A stretch of 21,078 nucleotides of DNA from a virus. Under the pieces are notes generated by a model. The model was not told the DNA's origin, ran no database searches, and saw nothing but the letters and a program-made list of their open reading frames with translations. The first letter of the stretch is position 1; every line of letters starts with the position of its first letter. The stretch is taken from the IMG/VR virus record IMGVR_UViG_3300035698_008862, positions 1-21,078 of that record; one strand, 5' to 3'. The translations under genes were made by a program, and so were the position numbers. This document shows positions 609 through 20,725 of this stretch, in pieces.

Positions 609-1160
609 TTATGAATTCACGAAGGCGGCCAGCTTAGCTGCCACCTCGTCGTGTTTAGCTTTCGCTGCGGCCATGTCGCGTTCAACTGCCGCCTTCTGAG
701 CTGTTGCTAACTGGATCTCTTCCTTTATGCGTTGCAGCTCCACTCGTGCCGCCGCTGCGGCTTTCAGGGCCGCTGCCTCTTTAGCCTGGGCCGCTGCTGC
801 GCCTTTCGACTCAATGCCTGCTGCCTTCAGTTTAGCCTTGGTGATCAGGCTAGCCGCTTGGGCCTTACCTTCTGCTAGGTCCATTCTAAGTTCCTCGGCC
901 TGTCTGGCCGCTTCTGCCTCGCCATCTGCACGCTGTTCTAAGTACCCTGCTTGGTCCCTCGCTGCGTCCGCTGCTAGCTTTTCACGTTGCTTAGTAAGGC
1001 TGACTATTGCTACTTCGTTTTCAGCGCGGAATTGAGCGATCTGGTCCGTCTTTTCTAGCAAGTCAGCGACCTCTAGTAAACTCTTAAATTGGTTGGCTAG
1101 CGTCTTAAGCCCTTTGGCTGACGCGTTAAGGCTGGGTTCAAACTGTTTGTTATTTGCCAT
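609..1160 (-). CDS. Alanine-rich coiled-coil phage protein, 183 aa
   Basis: The protein is almost wholly helical and rich in Ala, Glu, Lys and Gln, with long heptad-like stretches from about residue 25 to the C-terminus (for example LLEVADLLEKTDQIAQFRAE and QRIKEEIQLATAQKAAVERD). There is no signal peptide or membrane segment. A ribosome site (AAGGAAC) precedes the ATG, and the stop of the upstream gene is only two bases away. Coiled-coil proteins at this place in phage virion operons can be scaffolding, tail-tube or fibre-attachment components. I cannot choose between these from sequence. The DNA is strongly G+C-biased at third positions because of the Ala codons, which also creates a long false open frame on the opposite strand. 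Confidence 0.75.
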   Translation of the reverse strand: MANNKQFEPSLNASAKGLKTLANQFKSLLEVADLLEKTDQIAQFRAENEVAIVSLTKQREKLAADAARDQAGYLEQRADGEAEAARQAEELRMDLAEGKAQAASLITKAKLKAAGIESKGAAAAQAKEAAALKAAAAARVELQRIKEEIQLATAQKAAVERDMAAAKAKHDEVAAKLAAFVNS

Positions 1161-1590: not shown

Positions 1591-4176
1591 TTAATATCCC
1601 ATTTCAGGATCCAGTGGCACGAAGGCCTCCTCAGTCTGCTTCTGACGCCTGATCTCTGGCATCGTAGGAATAGCAAACGTGAGTGCTAGTGAGTCGCCAT
1701 CGTCGGGTGACTTAACACCCCGCTTCTTGGCGTCGTCTTTAGACTCGAGCAGCAGCTCGCCACCTCGGTATGAATACCGCAGCGCCGTTAAGTCAACCTG
1801 CAGCTGATCGCCGTGTATCGCTGCGCCTTTCAGCCACTCTCGCATCTCGCCCCACATATAAGCTCGCATGTTGTAATAGATGCCGTCGCCCATCCTTATC
1901 GACGCATTGACGTCCTCTACTATTCTGATCGTCTTACCTCTCACAACTTTGTCCGGGTACCAGCCCCTCATGATGTCGGCCACACCTGCGCCGATGCCGA
2001 TCGTGTCCACTGCTATCTGCTCTGGTATCTCACCATATGCCCTGATCTCGGCGCGTGCACGGCTGGCCACCTGCATGACGTCTAACTTAGCTAGCGATAT
2101 CTGCTTGAGCAGCAGCCTGCCTCTACGGATCGTGATTGACGACTTATCGTCACCGAAGCGGGCTACGTCAATACCGACTCGCAGCTTGCCTGTCCCTTGC
2201 ACCTCGAACGGGCCTCGTTGCATGGCTGCCTTGACGGCCTCGCCGGTGATGAACGCATTGACGACTGACGCCTCGTAGTTCCTGTCGATCTCCTGCGCAA
2301 CAATGACGGCGTCCAGGTCCTCACACTGCTTGTCATACCAGGCTTGGTCCTTACGTGGATCTTCCCTCCAATCGAAGATGAACACACGGATCTTGCCGCC
2401 ATGACGCTTGCGATAGAACGGGTTACCGGCGCCGTGCGGTGTCGACACGTCGATCTTACAGTTTGAAGTCTGAGAGAGCGCAGCGTCTATAAGCTCTGGC
2501 TGTTCGTAGAACGCGCTATTGTGAGTAATGATGTGGTTGTCAGTCATATACAAGCCATCTGCGTTAGAAACGCTAATACATCGAGTTATAGCAGGCGTTA
2601 AGTCTTTGGTTACTGATACTATCGTTCTATTTAATTTATTACTGCGCTTAACCATTTTATTGAGTTTTCTGCTCAATCTAAACGGGATTATGTGTGCTGG
2701 TAATCTAATGTTTAAAATATTCATATCAAGATAACTGTCTTTTCTGCTATCCGATTTAATGCGATGCGAAGCAACCCCACCAAGCGACTGCACCAAAAAC
2801 TTAACATCCAAGGCCATCTGTGCCGAACATGTATGAAATGTAAGCATTGAACTTGACGCGCTGCCATCTGTGTCCATTAAACCCTGCAGCAATGAAATTC
2901 TTTCACCTACTGACGATAATAAATACTTGCTAGGTATATGTTTGTCTTTAGATGTTAGTCCATAAATGCCAGCGGCTTTAGCGCCACATATCATTTTATT
3001 GTTATTACCTCTTGGAGATTTACCTTTACCGTTCCCCCCAACAATCCGATATGTATAATCTTTATCAAATGATAGTTTGTAGCCAGTAGGTAAGCTTTTC
3101 TCTACCTCTGCAACAGATTCAGCATCAGCACTTGTAAATGTTATTGAAGTAGTTTTAGCAGATAAACACCCATCACCCAACAAAGAACCTACTAGATATG
3201 GGTTTAAAGGCAAGCTTTCAGTAATTTGGGTAAATTGAACTGCATGGTTATCTGGTAGCTCATATAAATATTGGGTTTGACCCCGCGGGCTAATATATAA
3301 ATACTTTTCTGCAATCTCATGAGTTCGCATTGTCTTGTTTATGCGCTTACCCCATACTTTGCTTACATCCCACAAATGATTAGGTGTTGCTTTAATTTTA
3401 GAGCCATCACTAAATTCAATGGTATGCGTTTCATGCAAGCCAACATCATTTATACCTATTACCGTTTGTGGCAAACCATCTGCCCCACTGATTACCTCCC
3501 CGACAATAATATCCCCAAGCCTTTTGTAGCCGTAAGGCGTGACTATATTGCTATCAACATCACCCGCTTCGTCTTTGAAGTAGATCGACGCACGCCCACC
3601 TCGACCAATGTTGTTGCCGGCCTCGCCAATAATGGCGCTGCCATTCTCTGGGTTAATAATCCGCATGAAAGGCGCGTGCACCTTGACGTGCCACTTCCTT
3701 GGCTTAAACTCTGGCGGCAAGAAGTCGATGAACGATCTTACCTTCCAAAACAATGAGTTAGGGTTATTGACGTCGTCCACGTAGGTTTCCTTACGGCTGC
3801 CGAAGCCGATCACCGTACCTGGGTAGAAGGTCCACATCCACACTGAGAATGCGACGCATAGCCATGAGACGCCCATGTCCCTTGACTTCTCTGCTAGTCC
3901 GTCCTCTCCTCTACGCCAGCGATCATGCAGCCACTGGATGAAGTCCTGCTGCCTTGGGAATAGCACGAACGGCATCGTCGTTGGTAGGCTCCGTTCGGCC
4001 ATACGTGGATCGAAGGTCATGCCCATATCGTTAATGAAGTCGATGGGGTTTTCTTTGTAGTGGGCTTTGAGTGCGGCTAGGTCGAACCCTGGCTCGCGTA
4101 TCCGTTTCAGTAGCGCATGGCGCTGCTCATAGACCTGTGTGTATTCTGGCTTCAGCCAGTCGATGTCGTAGTCCAC
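1591..4176 (-). CDS. terL: Terminase large subunit precursor containing an intein, 861 aa
   Basis: This is the ATPase-nuclease motor that packages DNA into the prohead and cuts the concatemer. The ATPase N-half has a Walker A-type motif AEKSRDMGVSW (residues 95-105) and a Walker B SIYFKDE (197-203). The nuclease C-half has GIDVARFGDDKS (D670), AVDTIGIGAG (D724) and SPDDGDSLAL (D825-D828), the expected acidic RNase H-like set. Residues 204-553 are an intein. Without it the protein is 511 residues, normal for TerL, and Walker B reads KDESAFYEQPE, as in relatives. The start codon is GTG, overlapping the TAG of the upstream gene (TAGTG), so translation is probably coupled. Packaging needs protein splicing, since the insert interrupts Walker B. 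Mature neighbours in the operon are TerS upstream and virion-like genes downstream. Confidence 0.95.
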   Translation of the reverse strand: MDYDIDWLKPEYTQVYEQRHALLKRIREPGFDLAALKAHYKENPIDFINDMGMTFDPRMAERSLPTTMPFVLFPRQQDFIQWLHDRWRRGEDGLAEKSRDMGVSWLCVAFSVWMWTFYPGTVIGFGSRKETYVDDVNNPNSLFWKVRSFIDFLPPEFKPRKWHVKVHAPFMRIINPENGSAIIGEAGNNIGRGGRASIYFKDEAGDVDSNIVTPYGYKRLGDIIVGEVISGADGLPQTVIGINDVGLHETHTIEFSDGSKIKATPNHLWDVSKVWGKRINKTMRTHEIAEKYLYISPRGQTQYLYELPDNHAVQFTQITESLPLNPYLVGSLLGDGCLSAKTTSITFTSADAESVAEVEKSLPTGYKLSFDKDYTYRIVGGNGKGKSPRGNNNKMICGAKAAGIYGLTSKDKHIPSKYLLSSVGERISLLQGLMDTDGSASSSMLTFHTCSAQMALDVKFLVQSLGGVASHRIKSDSRKDSYLDMNILNIRLPAHIIPFRLSRKLNKMVKRSNKLNRTIVSVTKDLTPAITRCISVSNADGLYMTDNHIITHNSAFYEQPELIDAALSQTSNCKIDVSTPHGAGNPFYRKRHGGKIRVFIFDWREDPRKDQAWYDKQCEDLDAVIVAQEIDRNYEASVVNAFITGEAVKAAMQRGPFEVQGTGKLRVGIDVARFGDDKSSITIRRGRLLLKQISLAKLDVMQVASRARAEIRAYGEIPEQIAVDTIGIGAGVADIMRGWYPDKVVRGKTIRIVEDVNASIRMGDGIYYNMRAYMWGEMREWLKGAAIHGDQLQVDLTALRYSYRGGELLLESKDDAKKRGVKSPDDGDSLALTFAIPTMPEIRRQKQTEEAFVPLDPEMGY
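2518..3567 (-). mobile_element. Class 3-type intein with LAGLIDADG homing endonuclease in TerL
   Basis: The intein spans precursor residues A204 to N553 and is followed by Ser554 as the +1 residue. Block A begins AGDVDSNIVTPYGYKRLGD, with Ala instead of the usual Cys/Ser at position 1. Block B reads KATPNHLW, with T264, H267 and W269. Block F is TRCISVSNADGLYM with C533, and block G is IITHN|S with T551, H552 and N553. The W269-C533-T551 set plus non-nucleophilic residue 1 matches the WCT signature of class 3 inteins. Two LAGLIDADG helices are present, LVGSLLGDG (328-336) and LQGLMDTDG (430-438), so it codes a homing endonuclease and is probably mobile. The insert is visibly richer in A and T than the flanking terminase exteins, as expected for transferred DNA. 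Splicing itself is inferred. Confidence 0.93.
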
Positions 4177-4364
4177 TAGTCTTCTACCACCTGCCTGAAA
4201 GTGTACTCATCCGTATCAAGATCGTAGGCCACTACCACCTCGCCATCTAGCCCTGTGCCGGTTGTCTTGAAGCCTCTGCTGGCTAGCTCCCTGATCATGT
4301 CACCCTTATTCTCGATGCCGCCTATGTCCGCGTCCGTGAGTATCGCCTCTGCTTTAAATGTCAT
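4176..4364 (-). CDS. Small hypothetical protein between TerS and TerL, 62 aa
   Basis: It starts MTFKAEAILTDADIGGIENK and ends DEYTFRQVVED. Both ends overlap neighbours: TAATG with the small terminase and TAGTG with the large one. It is therefore translationally coupled inside the packaging operon. No motif is recognised. The pattern GLDGEVVVAYDLDTDEYTF looks like three short beta strands. Its first five residues (MTFKA) equal those of the upstream small terminase, perhaps chance or a small duplication of a start region. A packaging-related role is inference from position. Confidence 0.7.
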   Translation of the reverse strand: MTFKAEAILTDADIGGIENKGDMIRELASRGFKTTGTGLDGEVVVAYDLDTDEYTFRQVVED

Positions 4365-5137
4365 TATGTCTTCCCTATTGCTTTCAGGTATGCCTCTTCG
4401 GCGGTTAGGTTAACTACCACTGCTTGCGATTGAATGGGGCCGCCGTCTGCACCTGTTACCTCTTGCTTATCAGTGAACAGCTTCAGGTGTCTGCCTAGCA
4501 GCTCGAGGCCTGCTACTTTAGGATGCGTCTTAACTTCCACCCCTTCCTTGGTAGTCTTGATGCCTGCGAACAGCGACTTGACGCCCGGCGGTAGGTTGCG
4601 AGTGTCCTTGACGAATACCTCGCTGATGCCATCGCCAAAGCATTCCTTGCATTCGGGGTTTGGATCCTTACGCTTGTCATAGCCGCTGCCACCCTCGGGG
4701 TCAAACGACGGCACCTTAGCGCCCTTCTTAACATTATCAACCTTATCGTTGTGTTCACTCTCATACTCCCAGAACTCATTTGGTGTACGTTGGTAGCGAT
4801 TGCCATCGCCCCAGCAGAAGCGGCAGCAGTGGCGCCTGTGTTCGACCAACTCACCAGGGTCGGCCATCGCTATGTTGTTGATCTCGCGCAGTACGTTGTC
4901 AGCCGTGACGTGAGTGCGCTGAGAGCGTTGGTCCATCGCCCGCTGCAGCATCGCCTGCACTTCAGGTGCTCTCAGTACGCGTGACGCATTATTTTCTGTA
5001 TAGCCCGCTCGCAGGGCTGCCTTGTAGATGTTCATTTGTGGATCTGCGAGCAGCTCCTCGACGAAGCGCAGCCGCATTGTGCCTGATCGGTCGATCTTCT
5101 TCTTCTTCTCTCCAGGCGACTTGGCTTTGAATGTCAT
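4364..5137 (-). CDS. terS: Terminase small subunit, 257 aa, with zinc-binding cysteines
   Basis: This is the DNA-recognition partner of TerL. Residues about 20-100 have the Terminase_2-type layout: a helix-turn-helix around MNIYKAALRAGYTENNASRV, then LRAPEVQAMLQRAMDQ and the helix VTADNVLREINNIAMADPGE. A cysteine cluster follows, CCRFCWGDG (C104, C105, C108) and CKECFGDG (C163, C166), a probable zinc site known in many small terminases with this domain. The C-terminal part (KVAGLELLGRHLKLFTDKQE) matches the usual TerS tail that leads to the TerL contact. It lies directly upstream of TerL and overlaps both neighbours. The start ATG overlaps the stop of the upstream gene (ATGA). Confidence 0.9.
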   Translation of the reverse strand: MTFKAKSPGEKKKKIDRSGTMRLRFVEELLADPQMNIYKAALRAGYTENNASRVLRAPEVQAMLQRAMDQRSQRTHVTADNVLREINNIAMADPGELVEHRRHCCRFCWGDGNRYQRTPNEFWEYESEHNDKVDNVKKGAKVPSFDPEGGSGYDKRKDPNPECKECFGDGISEVFVKDTRNLPPGVKSLFAGIKTTKEGVEVKTHPKVAGLELLGRHLKLFTDKQEVTGADGGPIQSQAVVVNLTAEEAYLKAIGKT

Positions 5138-7727: not shown

Positions 7728-8552
7728 ATGAGAAGCAACCAACCACTAACCATCGACCAGATCCAACGCGTCGCCCCTTCAGTATTCGCAGAACGTCCAT
7801 ACATTGAGACATCTGACCAGTACGCTTTCGTGCCTACCTTCGCGGTACTCGACTCACTTAAACGTGAGGGGTTCGACGTCTACGAAGCAAAGCAGTCTAC
7901 TACCCGCATCGTCGGGAAGGGCAACTTCGCTTCACACGTTTTAAAACTTCGTCACCCTGACTCATTCCTTGAAAAAGACGCCTACGGCCGTGCCGCCGAA
8001 CATGTAGAAATCATCCTACAGAACAGCCACGACGGCGGGTCAAGCTTCAGTCTATCGCAGGGCGTCTACCGTCTCATCTGTTCTAACGGGATGGTAGCCG
8101 GTTCAACACACGGCGAGATCCGTGTCCCTCACCGCGGCGACGTATCGCATGAGATCCTCGAAGGGGCATACAGCATCGTTGAGAGCTCAGCTGAGTTGCA
8201 GTCAGTCATCCGTGACTGGAAGGCGATCGAGTTGGACGCTAACGAACAGACAGCCTTGGCGGTCGCAGCCTCCACGCTAAGGTTCGAAGACGAGGCCATC
8301 CACCACGGCAGTCGTGCACGTGTGGCCCAAAGCTTACTCGGTGCACACCGTTGGGCTGACAAGGGTAACGACCTTTGGACGACCTTCAATCGTGTTCAAG
8401 AGAACGTCATCAAGGGTGGCGTGAACCTAGGCCGCAGTGACTCAGGCCGTCGTTCAACCTCTCGCAGCATCAAGAGTGTTGACGGCGACATCAAGTTAAA
8501 CAAGGCGCTATGGACGCTGGCCGACGAACTGGCTAAGTTTAAAGTGAATTAG
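7728..8552 (+). CDS. DUF932 phage/plasmid-like protein, 274 aa
   Basis: It carries the hallmark DUF932 core, HVEIILQNSHDGGSSFSLSQ followed by GVYRLICSNGMV and EIRVPHRG (residues about 90-140). N-terminal residues 1-70 include the ERPYIETSDQYAFVPT stretch typical of the family. This family is frequent on conjugative plasmids and phages and its biochemical role is not established. The C-terminal part is basic and Ser/Arg-rich (DSGRRSTSRSIKSVDGD), possibly binding nucleic acid. The start follows AAAAGGAGTAATACC and is preceded by module copy 3. It is the largest gene of this operon. Confidence 0.88.
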   Translation: MRSNQPLTIDQIQRVAPSVFAERPYIETSDQYAFVPTFAVLDSLKREGFDVYEAKQSTTRIVGKGNFASHVLKLRHPDSFLEKDAYGRAAEHVEIILQNSHDGGSSFSLSQGVYRLICSNGMVAGSTHGEIRVPHRGDVSHEILEGAYSIVESSAELQSVIRDWKAIELDANEQTALAVAASTLRFEDEAIHHGSRARVAQSLLGAHRWADKGNDLWTTFNRVQENVIKGGVNLGRSDSGRRSTSRSIKSVDGDIKLNKALWTLADELAKFKVN

Positions 8553-9778: not shown

Positions 9779-10047
9779 TGAAATTATACGATGAAGATTT
9801 AGAACTCTGCACGAAAGCGCTAATGTCCCTCTGCCGTGAACAGGCTAAAGAGATCACCCACCTAGAAAACCGATTAGGCGTTAACCTTGAGGTCGATTAC
9901 CTCTTCTTCTGGCCAGCCGTCAAGAAAATAGGTGAAGAGGCCGCAGTCGGTATACTAGATATGCGCATCGCCGAACTCCCAGATGGAGACGTTAAAGATG
10001 TCCTACTCAGTAAACGTCGGGCGATCACGGAAGAGGGGATCATTTAA
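9778..10047 (+). CDS. Hypothetical protein, 89 aa, last gene of the rightward run
   Basis: It starts MKLYDEDLELCTKALMSLCR and continues EQAKEITHLENRLGVNLEV, VDYLFFWPAVKKIGEEAAVG and AELPDGDVKDVLLSKRRAI. It is acidic and helical. The ATG overlaps the stop of the regulator, with a GGAG site seven bases upstream. Its last eight bases overlap the 3' end of the leftward SNF2 helicase gene, so two transcription units converge with no room for a normal terminator. No family recognised. Confidence 0.65.
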   Translation: MKLYDEDLELCTKALMSLCREQAKEITHLENRLGVNLEVDYLFFWPAVKKIGEEAAVGILDMRIAELPDGDVKDVLLSKRRAITEEGII

Positions 10048-11476
10048 TCCGCTTAAGCCGCTGTCGTACGGCCGCTATAACCGCATCCTGCTCTTCTCTC
10101 TTCTCACTCAACCGCTGCATTACATCCTCCTCAATACTATCCGCAACAATCAGGTGGTAGGACGTCACACTGTCCGCCGCCTGCCCTTCCCTAGGCAGTC
10201 GCTTATTGAACTGCATGAACAATTCCAAATTCCAGATCGCACCATACCAAACCGCAACACTACCGCCCTGCTGTAAATTTAACCCATATCCTCCACTAGC
10301 GGGTTGGATCAACCCCATCTTAATCCTACCCGCGTTCCAATTCCGCTCGAAGTCCTTATCATCCCGCAAGTCAACCGACCCCTTAAACTCAGCCTTTAGG
10401 CGCTGCCGATCGTGGTCATACCAGAACGCCGTCAAGATATTACTATCGGTGACGTCCCTAATCTCCGCCAGTGCGTCTAACTTCGCACGGTGTATGCTAT
10501 GCGCCCCACCGGCATCATCGTAGACCGTCCCATTACAAATCTGCAGTAGCTTATTGCCAAGGACGGCAGCATTCGCAGCCTCTATCGCTCCGCCGCCTTC
10601 CAGCATCGCAACGTAGTCACGTTCAACCCGGTCGTATATCTCCCTGGCTTCTGGTGGCAGGTAGACCGGCACGATAATATGGACGACAGGTATCTGCTTC
10701 ATGCCCAGCTGCTCAAAGCTGGCACAGATGTCACCCACGGTGTCGTAGATGTCTTCCCTTGATCCGTGTCTCGGTCCCCACGTGTAGATCTGTCCGGTGG
10801 TCCGGTTAACCCGAACCGGTTGCATATACTTCTCGTGGAATTCCCTCAAGGTCCTACCCAATCGCCTTCCCCCATCCAAAAGCAACATCTGGGAGAAGAG
10901 TTTACCTAGCCCATTTGCACAGGGCGTCCCTGTGAGCTGATATAACCGCTTGATGTAACCCCTAACCCTATTCAATGCCCTAAATCGATCTGTGTCCTTC
11001 TCAGACACCATACTCGACTCATCCATAATCACACAATCATACGGCCACTTATCCCCAAACAGCTTCGCCAACCTGGGCACCAAGTCGTAATGGATGGTAA
11101 AGAACTGCGTGTCCCGCATCAGCAGGTCGCGCCTAGAGACGCGCATGTTGACCAACTTGAATACCTTAACCGGCTTACCCTTGCGGATAACCTCAACCTT
11201 GGTCACGGGTAAGTCCTTGGCGGTGATATGGTAGCCGCCCCTACGATGACGCAGGTGGTCCCACTTGTCTATCTCATCGAACCACACATTGGCGGCTATC
11301 CTTGGCGTGCCAATCACCAGCACGCGACTGACCTCCAACCGGTCGAGTAGCTCATCAGCTACCGTCGCAGCGGAGGCCGTCTTCCCGCCAGCCATGTCAA
11401 GCCAAACGCCGGCGAACGGTCTTTCCCTCAGCCAGTCCATCACAGCCAAGTCATGCGGCCTAGGTACATACTTCAT
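10040..11476 (-). CDS. SNF2/DEAD-like helicase, 478 aa
   Basis: An SF2 ATPase of the SNF2 type common in phage replication modules. Motif I is WLDMAGGKT (residues 25-33), motif II CVIMDESS (148-155, DES in place of DEAH), motif III LTGTPCANG (181-189), motif V near QPASGGYGLNLQQGG (391-405) and motif VI QFNKRLPREGQ (422-432). These cover both RecA-like domains, so the protein looks complete. It likely remodels DNA or protein-DNA complexes at replication or recombination forks. The start ATG overlaps the stop of the VRR-NUC gene, and a nuclease-helicase pair of this kind is a standard phage gene pair. Exact substrate is not known. Confidence 0.92.
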   Translation of the reverse strand: MKYVPRPHDLAVMDWLRERPFAGVWLDMAGGKTASAATVADELLDRLEVSRVLVIGTPRIAANVWFDEIDKWDHLRHRRGGYHITAKDLPVTKVEVIRKGKPVKVFKLVNMRVSRRDLLMRDTQFFTIHYDLVPRLAKLFGDKWPYDCVIMDESSMVSEKDTDRFRALNRVRGYIKRLYQLTGTPCANGLGKLFSQMLLLDGGRRLGRTLREFHEKYMQPVRVNRTTGQIYTWGPRHGSREDIYDTVGDICASFEQLGMKQIPVVHIIVPVYLPPEAREIYDRVERDYVAMLEGGGAIEAANAAVLGNKLLQICNGTVYDDAGGAHSIHRAKLDALAEIRDVTDSNILTAFWYDHDRQRLKAEFKGSVDLRDDKDFERNWNAGRIKMGLIQPASGGYGLNLQQGGSVAVWYGAIWNLELFMQFNKRLPREGQAADSVTSYHLIVADSIEEDVMQRLSEKREEQDAVIAAVRQRLKRIK

Positions 11477-11797: not shown

Positions 11798-12115
11798 GGT
11801 TACACCCCACCCGAAACCCTATATAACATGGGAACATGTATGTTTTATGTATACCCATAGATACGTAATATACCCCCTTTTACACTCTCTCATATACGTG
11901 TAGTTTAATACAATAAGGTGTAACCTGTAACCTTAATAGTATAGAAGTATATATAATACAGTAGGTTAGATAAGGTTACACCCCAAGGTTACACCATCAA
12001 AAGGTTACACCTCTAGGTGTAACTTTTTCATTTTAAGAAATCCACCTCACCTACTTTTCTGTTTTCCGACGCCTTGATAATTTCTTTTAGCAGTTCATTG
12101 GACTCAGGTGTAACC
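11798..12115. repeat. Cluster of seven GGTTACACC iteron-like repeats, candidate origin or control site
   Basis: The 9-mer GGTTACACC occurs at 11798-11806, 11974-11982, 11987-11995 and 12003-12011. Its reverse complement is at 11917-11925 and 12107-12115, with 8 of 9 bases also at 12016-12023. A shorter GGTTAC precedes the first copy and TGTAACC follows the 11917 copy. The 250-base stretch between the VRR-NUC and primase-helicase genes has no gene and is strongly A+T-rich (for example AGTATATATAATACAGTA). It also contains an ACATG-GGAA-CATGT inverted repeat at 11826-11839. Repeats beside an A+T-rich tract and a primase-helicase gene are the usual look of a replication origin. This is a hypothesis. 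Confidence 0.7.
11999..12028. terminator. Hairpin with flanking A/T runs at the end of the primase-helicase gene
   Basis: Two iterons in opposite orientation form GTTACACCT-CT-AGGTGTAAC with AAAAG on one side and TTTTT on the other. The shape is an intrinsic terminator that can work in either direction. It starts at the last base of the leftward primase-helicase stop codon, so leftward termination there is most likely, although a weaker U-run (CUUUUGA) follows on that strand. On the plus strand the U-run is UUUUUC. Confidence 0.55.
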
Positions 12116-14784
12116 TTCTTCGGGAATGACTTACTGACCCAAAAACGCCACGCTTTACCATCAACCTTGACCGGTTTTCCGTACGATCTCCAGCCCATCT
12201 TTTTCAAAAAGTAGGCAATCTTCTCGACAGGGATGAACCCACCGCCGTCATCCCAAAGCTCTATTGCCTCTTGTAATTTAGAAGGGTTGACGACCTTACT
12301 AGTTACCCAAGGCCTGCCCTCCTCGATAACATCCCGCACCAGCTGCTCGTCTATTGAAGTATTATTGTTGACCATGTCATGCTTCTCATCAGTGTCTGGT
12401 GCCCTACCCCTTGGGTTAAAGTCTGAAATCGGCCAGTCAAGCATCCACCCACGGAGTGCCTCGCGGTGACCCTCGACCGCACCGAAGAGGCTGTCAAAGT
12501 AGGCGCTGCTGTCTGGACAACCCTCACGGATTGCCAGTTCATCCAACAGGCTGCCGGTCTCATCCCCATCGATAGGCGTGTGTATCACACCGACTCGCCT
12601 AGAACCTATTGATATGGGGACCGCATCATAGTGATTACTGAATAGCATATAGTTAGTGATGTTAGGCACCTCCACCCCATCCAGTCCTTTCTTAACGATC
12701 GACACAGAAGAGTTAGCCAGTGGCGCCTTAAGGTTATCCCACGCGTCCTGCCGATTGCCGTGCATGCGGATCTCCTCAATGGCAGCGAAGGCATGGCCCT
12801 CGGCCCAACCATTGAAATTCTCATTGACTACCTCGCTAGTGCTAACCGATCTAACGTTCGGTGCGCCCATGACAGCGGCCATCAGTGCAGCGATCCATGT
12901 CTTGCCGACACCCTCACCACCAACGATCAACCACGCAAAGCTGATCTTCACGCCTGGGAACTTCACGCAGAAGGCCAGCCAGTTCATTAAGTTTTTAAAG
13001 ACCTCGGGCCTCTCGTCACACAAAAGCTCAAGGTGACGTTGCGCCCGCTTAACGGCCAACCCGTCTGCCTCTGTCCATTCCCCGGACGGTTTAGCGACGG
13101 GCGTACTAGACGGCCGGTAGGTATTCACGCATGACACGCCGTCGAGTGTGAACATCGGGTCCAGGTGCGGCATATAGACGCCACGATTCACGCGACGAGT
13201 GTGCCTGTTATCCCGCAGCATCATCCACGCGGACCGCTGGATGTCGTTCTCATCGAAGCCCGCGTGAGGGTTATGCCTGAAGTCGAACTTATGTTGGTTG
13301 AGCTTACTGCACGTGTCGTACTCATATAGAACGTCCTCGGCCTCGATATAAACATAGGGTAGGCCCCACTGCGGTAGTCCGACCTGATCGTTTAGGACCT
13401 GCCTTGGCGGGGATAACATCTGACGTGCGTCCTTGATCGTCGGCTTGACGCCGGTTAGGTCCTTCAGCCGTTCCTGCAGCGCGTGCGCCAGTGTGTCGAT
13501 GTCATACGCCTCTAGTGATGACGCTTGTGCGCGTACGGCGATGCATACTTCCGTCCGGAGCTCAATCTCAGAGCTCGCCGCGGTGATCCTCTCAAGTAAC
13601 TCTTCTCTCGAGTGGGTGGCCTCGACAGTGTCTTCAGTCTGCATAGCCTCGAGCTGAACGGCCACGCGGTCGTCGTCTTCGAGCTCGGCGAGCATAGCCT
13701 GGTAGCTAGGTCGGCTCTGCATGTCCATGAGTATGAAAGGGTCGACACCTTCGTCGAGGTGCCCGTGTAGGTAATATCGACAGAGGTCGAAGAGGTTGAC
13801 TACTCGGTTGTCGAAAGGGTCAGTGTTGTGGGTTGATCCGAAGTGCATCCTGTCGTCCGTGACGTAACAGCCACCAGGCGTCCCTCCCCCGTTAAGCCAT
13901 GTGGCGCGGCGTCCGCCGTCCCCGTCCCATGTGAATTCGTCAGATAACATGCCATCGATAAGGTCCTCTATAGTGTACGCGCGGTGGAATGCGCCGATCG
14001 GGCCAGTCTTCTGAGAAGGGTCCTTGAATTCGAAGTCGCTCGCCTCACCCGCGAACTGAGTATAGGCGTTAGCCAGCACATCCTCTTCGATGACAAGTGG
14101 AACGGTGTCACCTAGCCAGCCCTCGACGGTGCCTATCCGCTGCGGTACGTTGTCGACTGTCTCGCCTTTGAATATAGGATTCGCCGTGTAGTGCACCTGG
14201 ACCGTGCGCAGTGGCGCGACGTCGATCAGCGGACTGACACTCTTCGCCCAGGCGGTCATCTGTACAGAGTCGTAAGCCGTCTCTAGCCAGAACCATAGGT
14301 GGATCTTTAGTTTATGTTTCGCGTTAGGTTGACCGGCCGATGCACTCAGCTGCCAGACAAAGCTCGCGCCGTCGAAGATATCCGGTAGGACCTCCTTGAT
14401 ATAACGTTCGGCTGCCCTGACTGGATCCGTGGCCGGTTCGAAGTCGTCTATTCGGTAGTCGTCAACGTCAAGCATCACCCAATGGTGCGGGTTATCATCG
14501 TATAGTTTCTTCTGTCTAGGGTAGTGGTCAGGTGTCTTCGGGTCTATGCCGCCTTCTATAGACTGAGCATGGTCCTCGCCCTTGAAGTGGCCACGTATCA
14601 CGCAATGTTTAGGTTTGCGGCTGAGCTTATGTAGGAACGTCGACAGGTGGCTGAGGTCGGTGACTGGGTACTCCTTCACCTTGAAATACTTACCGCTGCC
14701 GTAGGTCTCGACGGTATCCCCGTCGAAGGCCTTGGTCATATTGATGTTACCCTTCGCTGTTAGTATTGTAATGGTATCAGACAT
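12028..14784 (-). CDS. Primase-helicase: archaeo-eukaryotic primase-like N-terminus and SF3 helicase, 918 aa
   Basis: Likely the replicative primase-helicase. The N-terminal 230 residues resemble an AEP/PrimPol catalytic domain: HWVMLDVDDYRIDD (D106, D108) supplies the metal-binding acids, and SASAGQPNAKHKLKIHLWFW (147-166) supplies H162. The C-terminal part is a D5-type SF3 helicase: AWLIVGGEGVGKTWIAALMA with Walker A 622-629, FAAIEEIRMHG with Walker B 668-672, sensor NYMLFSNHYDAVPIS (N717) and R729-R730 as probable arginine fingers. A long middle region (about 240-560) contains a Glu-rich linker. The ATG overlaps the 38-residue ORF upstream. The gene is followed by iteron-like repeats, consistent with origin-linked replication. 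The AEP call is less certain than the helicase call. Confidence 0.9.
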   Translation of the reverse strand: MSDTITILTAKGNINMTKAFDGDTVETYGSGKYFKVKEYPVTDLSHLSTFLHKLSRKPKHCVIRGHFKGEDHAQSIEGGIDPKTPDHYPRQKKLYDDNPHHWVMLDVDDYRIDDFEPATDPVRAAERYIKEVLPDIFDGASFVWQLSASAGQPNAKHKLKIHLWFWLETAYDSVQMTAWAKSVSPLIDVAPLRTVQVHYTANPIFKGETVDNVPQRIGTVEGWLGDTVPLVIEEDVLANAYTQFAGEASDFEFKDPSQKTGPIGAFHRAYTIEDLIDGMLSDEFTWDGDGGRRATWLNGGGTPGGCYVTDDRMHFGSTHNTDPFDNRVVNLFDLCRYYLHGHLDEGVDPFILMDMQSRPSYQAMLAELEDDDRVAVQLEAMQTEDTVEATHSREELLERITAASSEIELRTEVCIAVRAQASSLEAYDIDTLAHALQERLKDLTGVKPTIKDARQMLSPPRQVLNDQVGLPQWGLPYVYIEAEDVLYEYDTCSKLNQHKFDFRHNPHAGFDENDIQRSAWMMLRDNRHTRRVNRGVYMPHLDPMFTLDGVSCVNTYRPSSTPVAKPSGEWTEADGLAVKRAQRHLELLCDERPEVFKNLMNWLAFCVKFPGVKISFAWLIVGGEGVGKTWIAALMAAVMGAPNVRSVSTSEVVNENFNGWAEGHAFAAIEEIRMHGNRQDAWDNLKAPLANSSVSIVKKGLDGVEVPNITNYMLFSNHYDAVPISIGSRRVGVIHTPIDGDETGSLLDELAIREGCPDSSAYFDSLFGAVEGHREALRGWMLDWPISDFNPRGRAPDTDEKHDMVNNNTSIDEQLVRDVIEEGRPWVTSKVVNPSKLQEAIELWDDGGGFIPVEKIAYFLKKMGWRSYGKPVKVDGKAWRFWVSKSFPKKVTPESNELLKEIIKASENRKVGEVDFLK

Positions 14785-19159: not shown

Positions 19160-19553
19160 AATAGAAATTATCGATTTAGATTTACTAATAGATGCAGTGC
19201 ACACTCTCGCCTCGGCCATAAGCTCAGCCGCTAAGCCTACCGTGAAGGCCGTGGAGCCATTCGTCGAAGGTGACGCAGCGGAGAAGCCGAAGCCGAAGCC
19301 GAAAGCACCTGCGAAGGCTGCGGCCTCCAAAGAGGAACCCTTAGAAGTTTCGGAAGATGCCCCATCGGAAACGGACGAAGCTGTCCCGGACGAGGTTGGG
19401 ATAACTGAAGACGAGCTGCGATCGCTCGCCGGCAAGGCCGCAAAGTCTAACCGGTCCAAGGCCCATGACGCCGTTAAACAATACGGCGGATCGATCTCCG
19501 CAGTTAAACCAGAACAGCGTGCCGAGCTCGCTGCACTATTGGAGGCGATATAA
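19149..19553 (+). CDS. Low-complexity protein with C-terminal helical domain, 134 aa
   Basis: The frame is open from 18993, but ATG 19149 has AAGGAGAAACAGG upstream and is chosen. Residues 1-35 are acidic-hydrophobic (MKVEIEIIDLDLLIDAVHTL); 36-85 are an Ala/Lys/Pro linker (KPKPKPKAPAKAAASKEEPL); 95-134 a helical domain (LRSLAGKAAKSNRSKAHDAV, VKPEQRAELAALLEAI). This three-part plan with the 'SVKPEQRAELxALLEAI' end is one I associate with the gene just upstream of DUF2800 in related phages, from memory. Its stop overlaps the DUF2800 start (TAATG), so the two are coupled. Possibly a partner of the nuclease or of single-stranded DNA. Confidence 0.7.
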   Translation: MKVEIEIIDLDLLIDAVHTLASAISSAAKPTVKAVEPFVEGDAAEKPKPKPKAPAKAAASKEEPLEVSEDAPSETDEAVPDEVGITEDELRSLAGKAAKSNRSKAHDAVKQYGGSISAVKPEQRAELAALLEAI

Positions 19554-20725
19554 TGGCTGCGCATGCACTACTGTCTGCCTCGGGGGCAGAACGGTGGACG
19601 GCCTGCACGCCCTCGCCTCGCTATGAACTGAACTTCCCTGATAAGGGATCGATGTTCGCGCTAGAGGGTACCGTCGCTCACGCGATGGGGGAGTTCGCAT
19701 TGGCGCCTGTTGAGAAGGGACTCGAACCACTAGTCGCCGCGGACATAACCGAGAAGATGCTTCCGGATCTGTTGCTACTAGATACGGTATTCCCAAACAC
19801 GGACTGGCGTAAGGATGAACTACCGGCCATGCAGCGATACGTGCAGGGTTATGTTGACTACGTTATGTCGGTCGCCGGTGAGCGTTTCATTGAACGCCGC
19901 GTTGACTTCAGTCACCTAGTCCCCGAGGGGTTTGGTACCAGTGATGTAATCATCCTACAGAACACAACCGTGCACATCATTGATCTGAAGTATGGTAAGG
20001 GCATCCAGCGATTCGCTGACGATCCGCAGCTTAAGCTATACGCGATCGGGGCGATGCACGACTATGGGTTCATATTCGATGGCGTCACGGATGTACACCT
20101 CCACATTTACCAGCCGAGGCTAGACCACATCGACGTGCACGAGATGCCGATCAGTGACCTAACCAAGTTCAGTAAGTGGATTAAACCCCTGGCTAAACTA
20201 GCTTGGGCCGGTGAGGGTGAGTTCGTGGCGGGAGACCATTGCGGTTTCTGTAAAGCGAGAGGGCCATGCAGGGCGAGAGCCGAGGCTAACATGAAGGTAG
20301 CCATGGAAGACTTCGCTGAGCCTATCCCTAACCCTAACTCCCTGACACTAGATGAGATTGGTTACATTCTCTCGAAGACGGGCCAGATCGGTAAGTGGTG
20401 TAACGACGTAGTAGAGTACGCACTAGGCCAGGCACTAGAAGGCCACGCGATCAGTGGGTATAAGGTGGTCGAGGGTAGGTCCAATCGCAGGTGGCTGGAT
20501 GAGGTGGCTGTGTCCGCAGCGATGACAGCGTCGGGGCTCACTAATGAGCAGATGTATAATATGAAGTTGATAGGCATTACCGAGGCAGAGAAGTTACTCG
20601 GCAAGAAGTCCGGAGTGCTGAAGATGGTTGAGAAGCCGGCAGGTAAGCCAACACTGGTACCTAACACCGACAAACGTAGGCCGATGAGAGAAACATCGGC
20701 AGAGAGGGATTTTACAGATGACTGA
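19553..20725 (+). CDS. DUF2800 family nuclease, PD-(D/E)XK with likely Fe-S cluster, 390 aa
   Basis: A RecB/Cas4-like nuclease of phage recombination modules. Seen: ALEGTVAHAMGE (residues 36-47, H43), GTSDVIILQ with D131, HIIDLKYGKGI with D144 and K146, and DPQLKLYAIGAM with Q159 and Y163, the ordered PD-(D/E)XK and QxxxY motifs. An N-terminal Cys (ERWTACTPS, C18) plus CGFCKARGPC (C230, C233, C239) would hold an iron-sulphur cluster like those of AddB and Cas4. Length is normal for the family. The function is likely 5' or 3' DNA end processing for replication and recombination. The next small gene overlaps its end. Confidence 0.9.
   Translation: MAAHALLSASGAERWTACTPSPRYELNFPDKGSMFALEGTVAHAMGEFALAPVEKGLEPLVAADITEKMLPDLLLLDTVFPNTDWRKDELPAMQRYVQGYVDYVMSVAGERFIERRVDFSHLVPEGFGTSDVIILQNTTVHIIDLKYGKGIQRFADDPQLKLYAIGAMHDYGFIFDGVTDVHLHIYQPRLDHIDVHEMPISDLTKFSKWIKPLAKLAWAGEGEFVAGDHCGFCKARGPCRARAEANMKVAMEDFAEPIPNPNSLTLDEIGYILSKTGQIGKWCNDVVEYALGQALEGHAISGYKVVEGRSNRRWLDEVAVSAAMTASGLTNEQMYNMKLIGITEAEKLLGKKSGVLKMVEKPAGKPTLVPNTDKRRPMRETSAERDFTDD

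Follow-up and report, generated by a model that had tools for sequence, protein, structure and literature searches.

A terminase large subunit gene interrupted in frame

The window, meaning the whole 21,078-nt stretch analysed (positions 1 to 21,078 of IMG/VR virus record IMGVR_UViG_3300035698_008862), carries on its minus strand a gene for a terminase large subunit (TerL) that is interrupted by what is almost certainly a class 3 intein. The precursor gene (1591–4176, minus strand) has a GTG start and encodes 861 aa with the intein included; it was recognised from its ORF, from PHROG matches and from its identity to phage TerLs (39–49%). The N-extein (3568–4176, minus strand; aa 1–203) ends in IYFKDE, the insert follows at 2518–3567, and the C-extein (1591–2517, minus strand) begins at Ser554, the +1 residue, with SAFYEQ and the remainder of TerL. 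The extein matched the PHROG terminase large subunit families phrog_2 and phrog_5989, and the intein part of TerL matched phrog_19299. A TerS gene (Terminase_2) at 4364–5137 gives the TerS-TerL gene order. E203, which is residue -1 relative to the insert, is the putative Walker B catalytic glutamate, and both D202 and E203 are invariant in a five-sequence TerL alignment.

Downstream of TerL lies a 183-aa ORF rich in Ala, Lys and Glu (609–1160, minus strand) with no PHROG or Pfam match, and a DUF932 protein (phrog_12094, from PHROG/Pfam) is encoded at 7728–8552 (plus strand). Three ordinary phage replication genes were also seen: a SNF2-type helicase (phrog_62; 10040–11476, minus strand), a primase/helicase-like protein (DUF5906; 12028–14784, minus strand) and a PD-(D/E)XK exonuclease (DUF2800, phrog_69; 19553–20725, plus strand). 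When bacterial genomes were scanned with the TerL as a single protein, no relative was confirmed; an alignment-based scan of bacterial genomes found TerLs of prophages or MAGs, the nearest of them (63%) in a Gallionella MAG, which is a weak hint as to the host of the phage.

Anatomy of the insert

The insert spans 350 aa (A204–N553; 2518–3567, minus strand) and combines a Hint splicing domain with a LAGLIDADG endonuclease. All of its features lie on the minus strand. Its first residue is Ala (A204 of TerL; 3565–3567), which offers no nucleophile. Block B contains H64-L65-W66, the class 3 HxW motif, within TPNHLW (3370–3378; H267 and W269 of TerL), while block F holds Cys330 at position F:4 (2578–2580; C533 of TerL), the proposed first nucleophile. 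Block G ends the intein with Thr348-His349-Asn350 (2518–2526; T551-H552-N553 of TerL), and the residue after it is S554, in agreement with the Ser or Thr expected at +1. Between blocks B and F are two LAGLIDADG motifs, LGDG (intein 130–133; 3169–3180) and MDTDG (intein 231–235; 2863–2877), each with a putative catalytic Asp. The first of these, D132, never varies in alignment A2 and is conserved to 90% or more in alignment A3; the second, D234, is invariant in both, and Pfam LAGLIDADG_3 scored above its cut-off in the intein. The residues named in the preliminary description (A204, W269, C533, T551 and Ser554) were all where it had placed them in the sequence and translation, and the limits that it gave for the insert, 2518 and 3567, are exact to the codon, in frame and on the minus strand.

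The reading frame runs through 350 codons with no stops and no frameshifts. GC content is 38.8% in the intein and 55.3% in the extein, and at third codon positions (GC3) it is 32.3% and 67.5%, respectively. A pseudogene was ruled out, as there are no stops and every catalytic residue is present. A related reading, in which the insert is a degenerate remnant of an intein and its endonuclease that has lost splicing, so that the phage would be defective in packaging or the contig would be a defective prophage, could appeal to the small size of the virus record (only 21 kb); given 350 open codons, a complete set of splicing and endonuclease catalytic residues, an extein that is intact on both sides and same-site homologues that are intact too, we consider it hardly credible.

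Boundaries and uninterrupted homologues

With residues 204–553 left out, the sequence KDE followed directly by SAFYEQPELIDAALSQ aligned without gaps to VDE[AS]AFL(E/Q)R of four uninterrupted phage TerLs. The predicted spliced junction reads KDE-SAFYEQ (here and below, a hyphen within a motif marks the insertion bond), immediately after the Walker B Glu203. This ungapped junction fixes the boundaries of the intein, and it bears out the earlier placement of the insertion at the Walker B DE-S bond. An N-terminal boundary one residue later was also considered and rejected, since the spliced TerL would then retain one Ala more than the ungapped homologues allow.

An empty site, which the preliminary description had proposed looking for among TerL homologues, turned out to be common. 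Initially 116 loci spanned the site; after removal of L047–L049, whose alignments enter an intein (see below), and of repeated contigs, about 108 distinct TerLs from IMG/VR and phage loci were uninterrupted there. The empty junctions mostly read DE-SA (83 loci) or DE-AA (26 loci). The closest empty TerLs are 66–67% identical to that of the window in amino acids, and across the 40 bp around the empty site DNA identity goes as high as 87.5%.

Assignment to class 3

Class 3 inteins are marked by Trp at B:12, Cys at F:4, Thr at G:5 and Ser or Thr at +1 (PMC5222942). The window intein has every one of these, as Trp66, Cys330, Thr348 and Ser+1, together with Ala1. We examined 89 loci with homologous inteins whose sequence reaches the C-terminal junction, and 83 of them show H-W-C-T-H-N at the six corresponding positions. 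The exceptions have Ser for Thr (five loci, three of which also have Lys for His) or Phe for Trp (one locus), so that the signature Trp occurs in 88 loci and the block F Cys in all 89. In a 27-sequence alignment the Trp-Cys-Thr triplet and the terminal HN are invariant. Conservation of the six residues across 83 of 89 loci, along with the drop in GC and GC3 relative to the extein, argues that the insert is not a chance pattern.

Searches with the sequence and with a predicted structure pointed the same way. The best phmmer matches among PDB sequences were the class 3 DnaB inteins 6bs8, 6rix and 6riy (E 2e-9 to 1e-8). An AlphaFold model of the intein (mean pLDDT 92, pTM 0.91) is predicted to comprise a Hint domain and a two-motif LAGLIDADG endonuclease. 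Foldseek matched the whole chain of this model to complete inteins with LAGLIDADG endonucleases (PI-SceI, E 1e-16; TliVMA) and the splicing domain to class 3 DnaB inteins. Pfam Intein_splicing (PF14890) covered residues 46–350 with 14.3 bits, below its cut-off of 35.8, and gave no matches in the record-wide search, which we take to mean that the model covers class 3 inteins poorly; in our reading, this score is not a defining feature of inteins. Scanning viral contigs with the intein as a single protein confirmed no relatives.

Class 1 was ruled out, as residue 1 has no nucleophile, and class 2 by the full Trp-Cys-Thr signature. A class 2-like route, in which the direct attack on the N-terminal junction comes from Ser+1 and the block F Cys is incidental, would share with our assignment an Ala at residue 1, which class 2 also allows, and a nucleophile at +1. 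It has next to no probability in our view: the class 3 signature, made up of Cys F:4, Trp B:12 and the Thr preceding HN, does not vary within the aligned family, Ser+1 is itself typical of class 3 (PMC5222942), and the closest solved relatives are class 3. Motif anatomy, the homologue family, sequence and fold matches to 6bs8, 6rix and 6riy, and the similarity to the Gaia TerL1-e intein discussed below all uphold the class 3 assignment that had first been made from the letters of the sequence, and we put the probability that the TerL insert is a class 3 intein at about 0.96.

Several variant inteins were seen in other loci. Five loci (L075, L077, L078, L089 and L095) carry class 3-like inteins with Ser for the signature Thr, which start at about 2492 in each locus and end at 3637 in L077 and at 3628 in the other four. 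These sit in a P-loop (GPRG-SAKS or APRG-SAKS); Pro was read at intein residue 1 in L075, L077 and L089, and in L077, L089 and L095 the penultimate His is replaced by Lys as well (SKN-SAKS). A homologous intein in L120 (2492–3625) has Phe for the signature Trp (H-F-C-T-H-N) and lies in a helicase-like P-loop (DDMGLGK-TTST). The inteins of L056 and L058 (about 2492–3505) have the full Trp-Cys-Thr signature yet Ser at residue 1, and follow a Glu (DDTWLE-SRNMT) in a long ORF; in the intein tree, L056 adjoins the clade described next.

Same-site relatives and conflicting trees

Inteins at the same bond (KDE-A...THN-SA) were found in three distinct viral TerLs on four metagenomic IMG/VR contigs, namely L047, L048 and L049 (identical in protein), and L050. 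These inteins are 57% (L047), 43% (L048/L049) and 41% (L050) identical to that of the window; they contain no stop codons, have the same residues and belong to the same length class. The TerL exteins that carry them are only about 39–41% identical to the window extein, and in the case of L047 an intein identity of 57% goes with an extein identity of 39%. The four same-site inteins came together as one clade in the intein tree (SH-aLRT 99), with those of the window and L047 as sisters. In the extein tree, on the other hand, the window was placed with empty TerLs, well away from the sister TerLs L047, L048 and L050. A single clade of intein-bearing TerLs was rejected on the extein tree (AU p=0.0014), a result to be read with the long branches that meet in this tree and the possible model bias that the AU test shares with it.

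This distribution probably reflects lateral movement by homing, as suggested by the conflict between the intein and extein trees and by the difference in GC3 between intein and extein (32% against 67%). Three features expected of a homing intein were found: both acidic LAGLIDADG motifs, alleles that lack the intein and keep a conserved DNA site, and trees that disagree. The alternative is that a true class 3 intein was inherited vertically from an ancestral TerL and repeatedly lost. Change counts on the tree do not separate gain from loss, and all four TerLs are interrupted at the same bond, as common descent would have it; yet the window intein is sister to that of L047 although its TerL is left out of the sister group L047, L048 and L050, the window and L047 are more alike in their inteins than in their exteins, the GC3 values are mismatched and the LAGLIDADG motifs are intact. 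We therefore judge vertical inheritance unlikely, and repeated loss from an intein-bearing ancestor less likely than homing. The closest intein found was 57% and the closest empty TerL about 67% identical in amino acids, with no near-identical counterpart of either, so that recent activity is not readable from substitution patterns. The earlier suggestion that the intein is possibly mobile is nonetheless strengthened by the intact endonuclease motifs, the common empty site, the same-site clade and the conflicting trees.

Proposed splicing and homing

The chemistry that we propose is transferred from class 3 inteins that have been studied. Cys330, aided by His64 and Thr348, would attack the peptide bond between Glu203 and Ala1, giving a branched thioester on Cys330. 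The acyl group would then move from Cys330 to Ser+1, Asn350 would cyclise with the help of His349 to release the intein, and an O-N acyl shift would join Glu203 to Ser by a normal bond, so that KDE-SAFYEQ and with it the ATPase site are re-formed. The window intein very likely splices actively. Packaging is expected to depend on splicing: since the insert parts the Walker B glutamate from the conserved residues after it, unspliced TerL should be inactive. As for homing, the LAGLIDADG endonuclease may cut intein-free TerL genes at the conserved DE-S DNA site, with repair copying the intein in.

Sitting in an essential active site, the intein could exert control, and one could imagine it as a conditional splicing switch that holds back, or responds to conditions such as redox (through Cys330), before the packaging motor forms. 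The DnaB inteins of Mycobacterium smegmatis differ in how they react to environmental stress (PMC6195587). We regard such a switch as very unlikely in the window, as the sequence gives no sign of regulation and published TerL inteins spliced readily, mainly to ligated product (PMC5050341).

Comparison with known inteins

PI-SceI, the yeast VMA1 intein, shares with the window intein a Hint domain into which a two-motif LAGLIDADG endonuclease is inserted. It starts with Cys1 and is a class 1 intein, unlike that of the window, and its host protein is not TerL. The class 3 inteins MsmDnaB1 and MchDnaB1 (6bs8, 6rix, 6riy) share active-site residues with the window intein, and their class 3 fold matches its splicing domain; they are, however, mini-inteins without an endonuclease and reside in the replicative helicase DnaB, whereas the window intein has an endonuclease and resides in TerL. 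The class 1 intein gp41-1 needed the changes C1A, F65W and D107C to imitate class 3 (6riz title; PMC7664689), and the Ala, Trp and Cys engineered there occur naturally at the equivalent places in the window intein.

The nearest precedent is in mycobacteriophages, where TerL is the commonest intein host and class 3 inteins are included (Kelley et al. 2016, PMC5050341). One of the inteins in that work, TerL1-e of Gaia gp2, is inserted within Walker B, and a reporter showed it to splice. On inspection, Gaia TerL (KJ567043 gp2) has its intein after FIILNE, with HLW, the block F Cys and THN, and the intein ends at THN-SHHM. TerL1-e thus shares HxW, the block F Cys, THN, Ser+1 and class 3 membership with the window intein, interrupts the equivalent Walker B E-S bond (FIILNE-SHHM compared with IYFKDE-SAFY) and resembles it over the full length, endonuclease region included, at 27% amino-acid identity. 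It differs in TerL family (Terminase_1; PMC5050341) and host lineage, and falls outside the same-site clade of the window in the intein tree. As a class 3 intein that splices at the equivalent E-S bond was already published in 2016, the window intein is neither a first case nor a new mechanism, and the understanding of intein chemistry is unchanged by it. No published class 3 intein was found in the literature for the terminase lineage of the window; what is new to us is a same-site clade in another TerL lineage, together with the conflict between intein and extein trees.

Taken with TerL1-e, the window raises the tentative idea that class 3 inteins have entered phage terminases at the Walker B E-S bond repeatedly, each time independently, in distant TerL families (the window clade and the Gaia clade). 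Such a bond would be an essential, DNA-conserved site with a Glu-Ser junction that suits class 3 chemistry, and splicing there might time motor assembly; we think this possible, though on balance doubtful. The window intein is also a candidate splicing element that accepts Glu at -1. A well-delimited class 3 intein, its same-site relatives and many empty alleles make up a natural set in which to study how homing may proceed from phage to phage at a codon of an essential active site.
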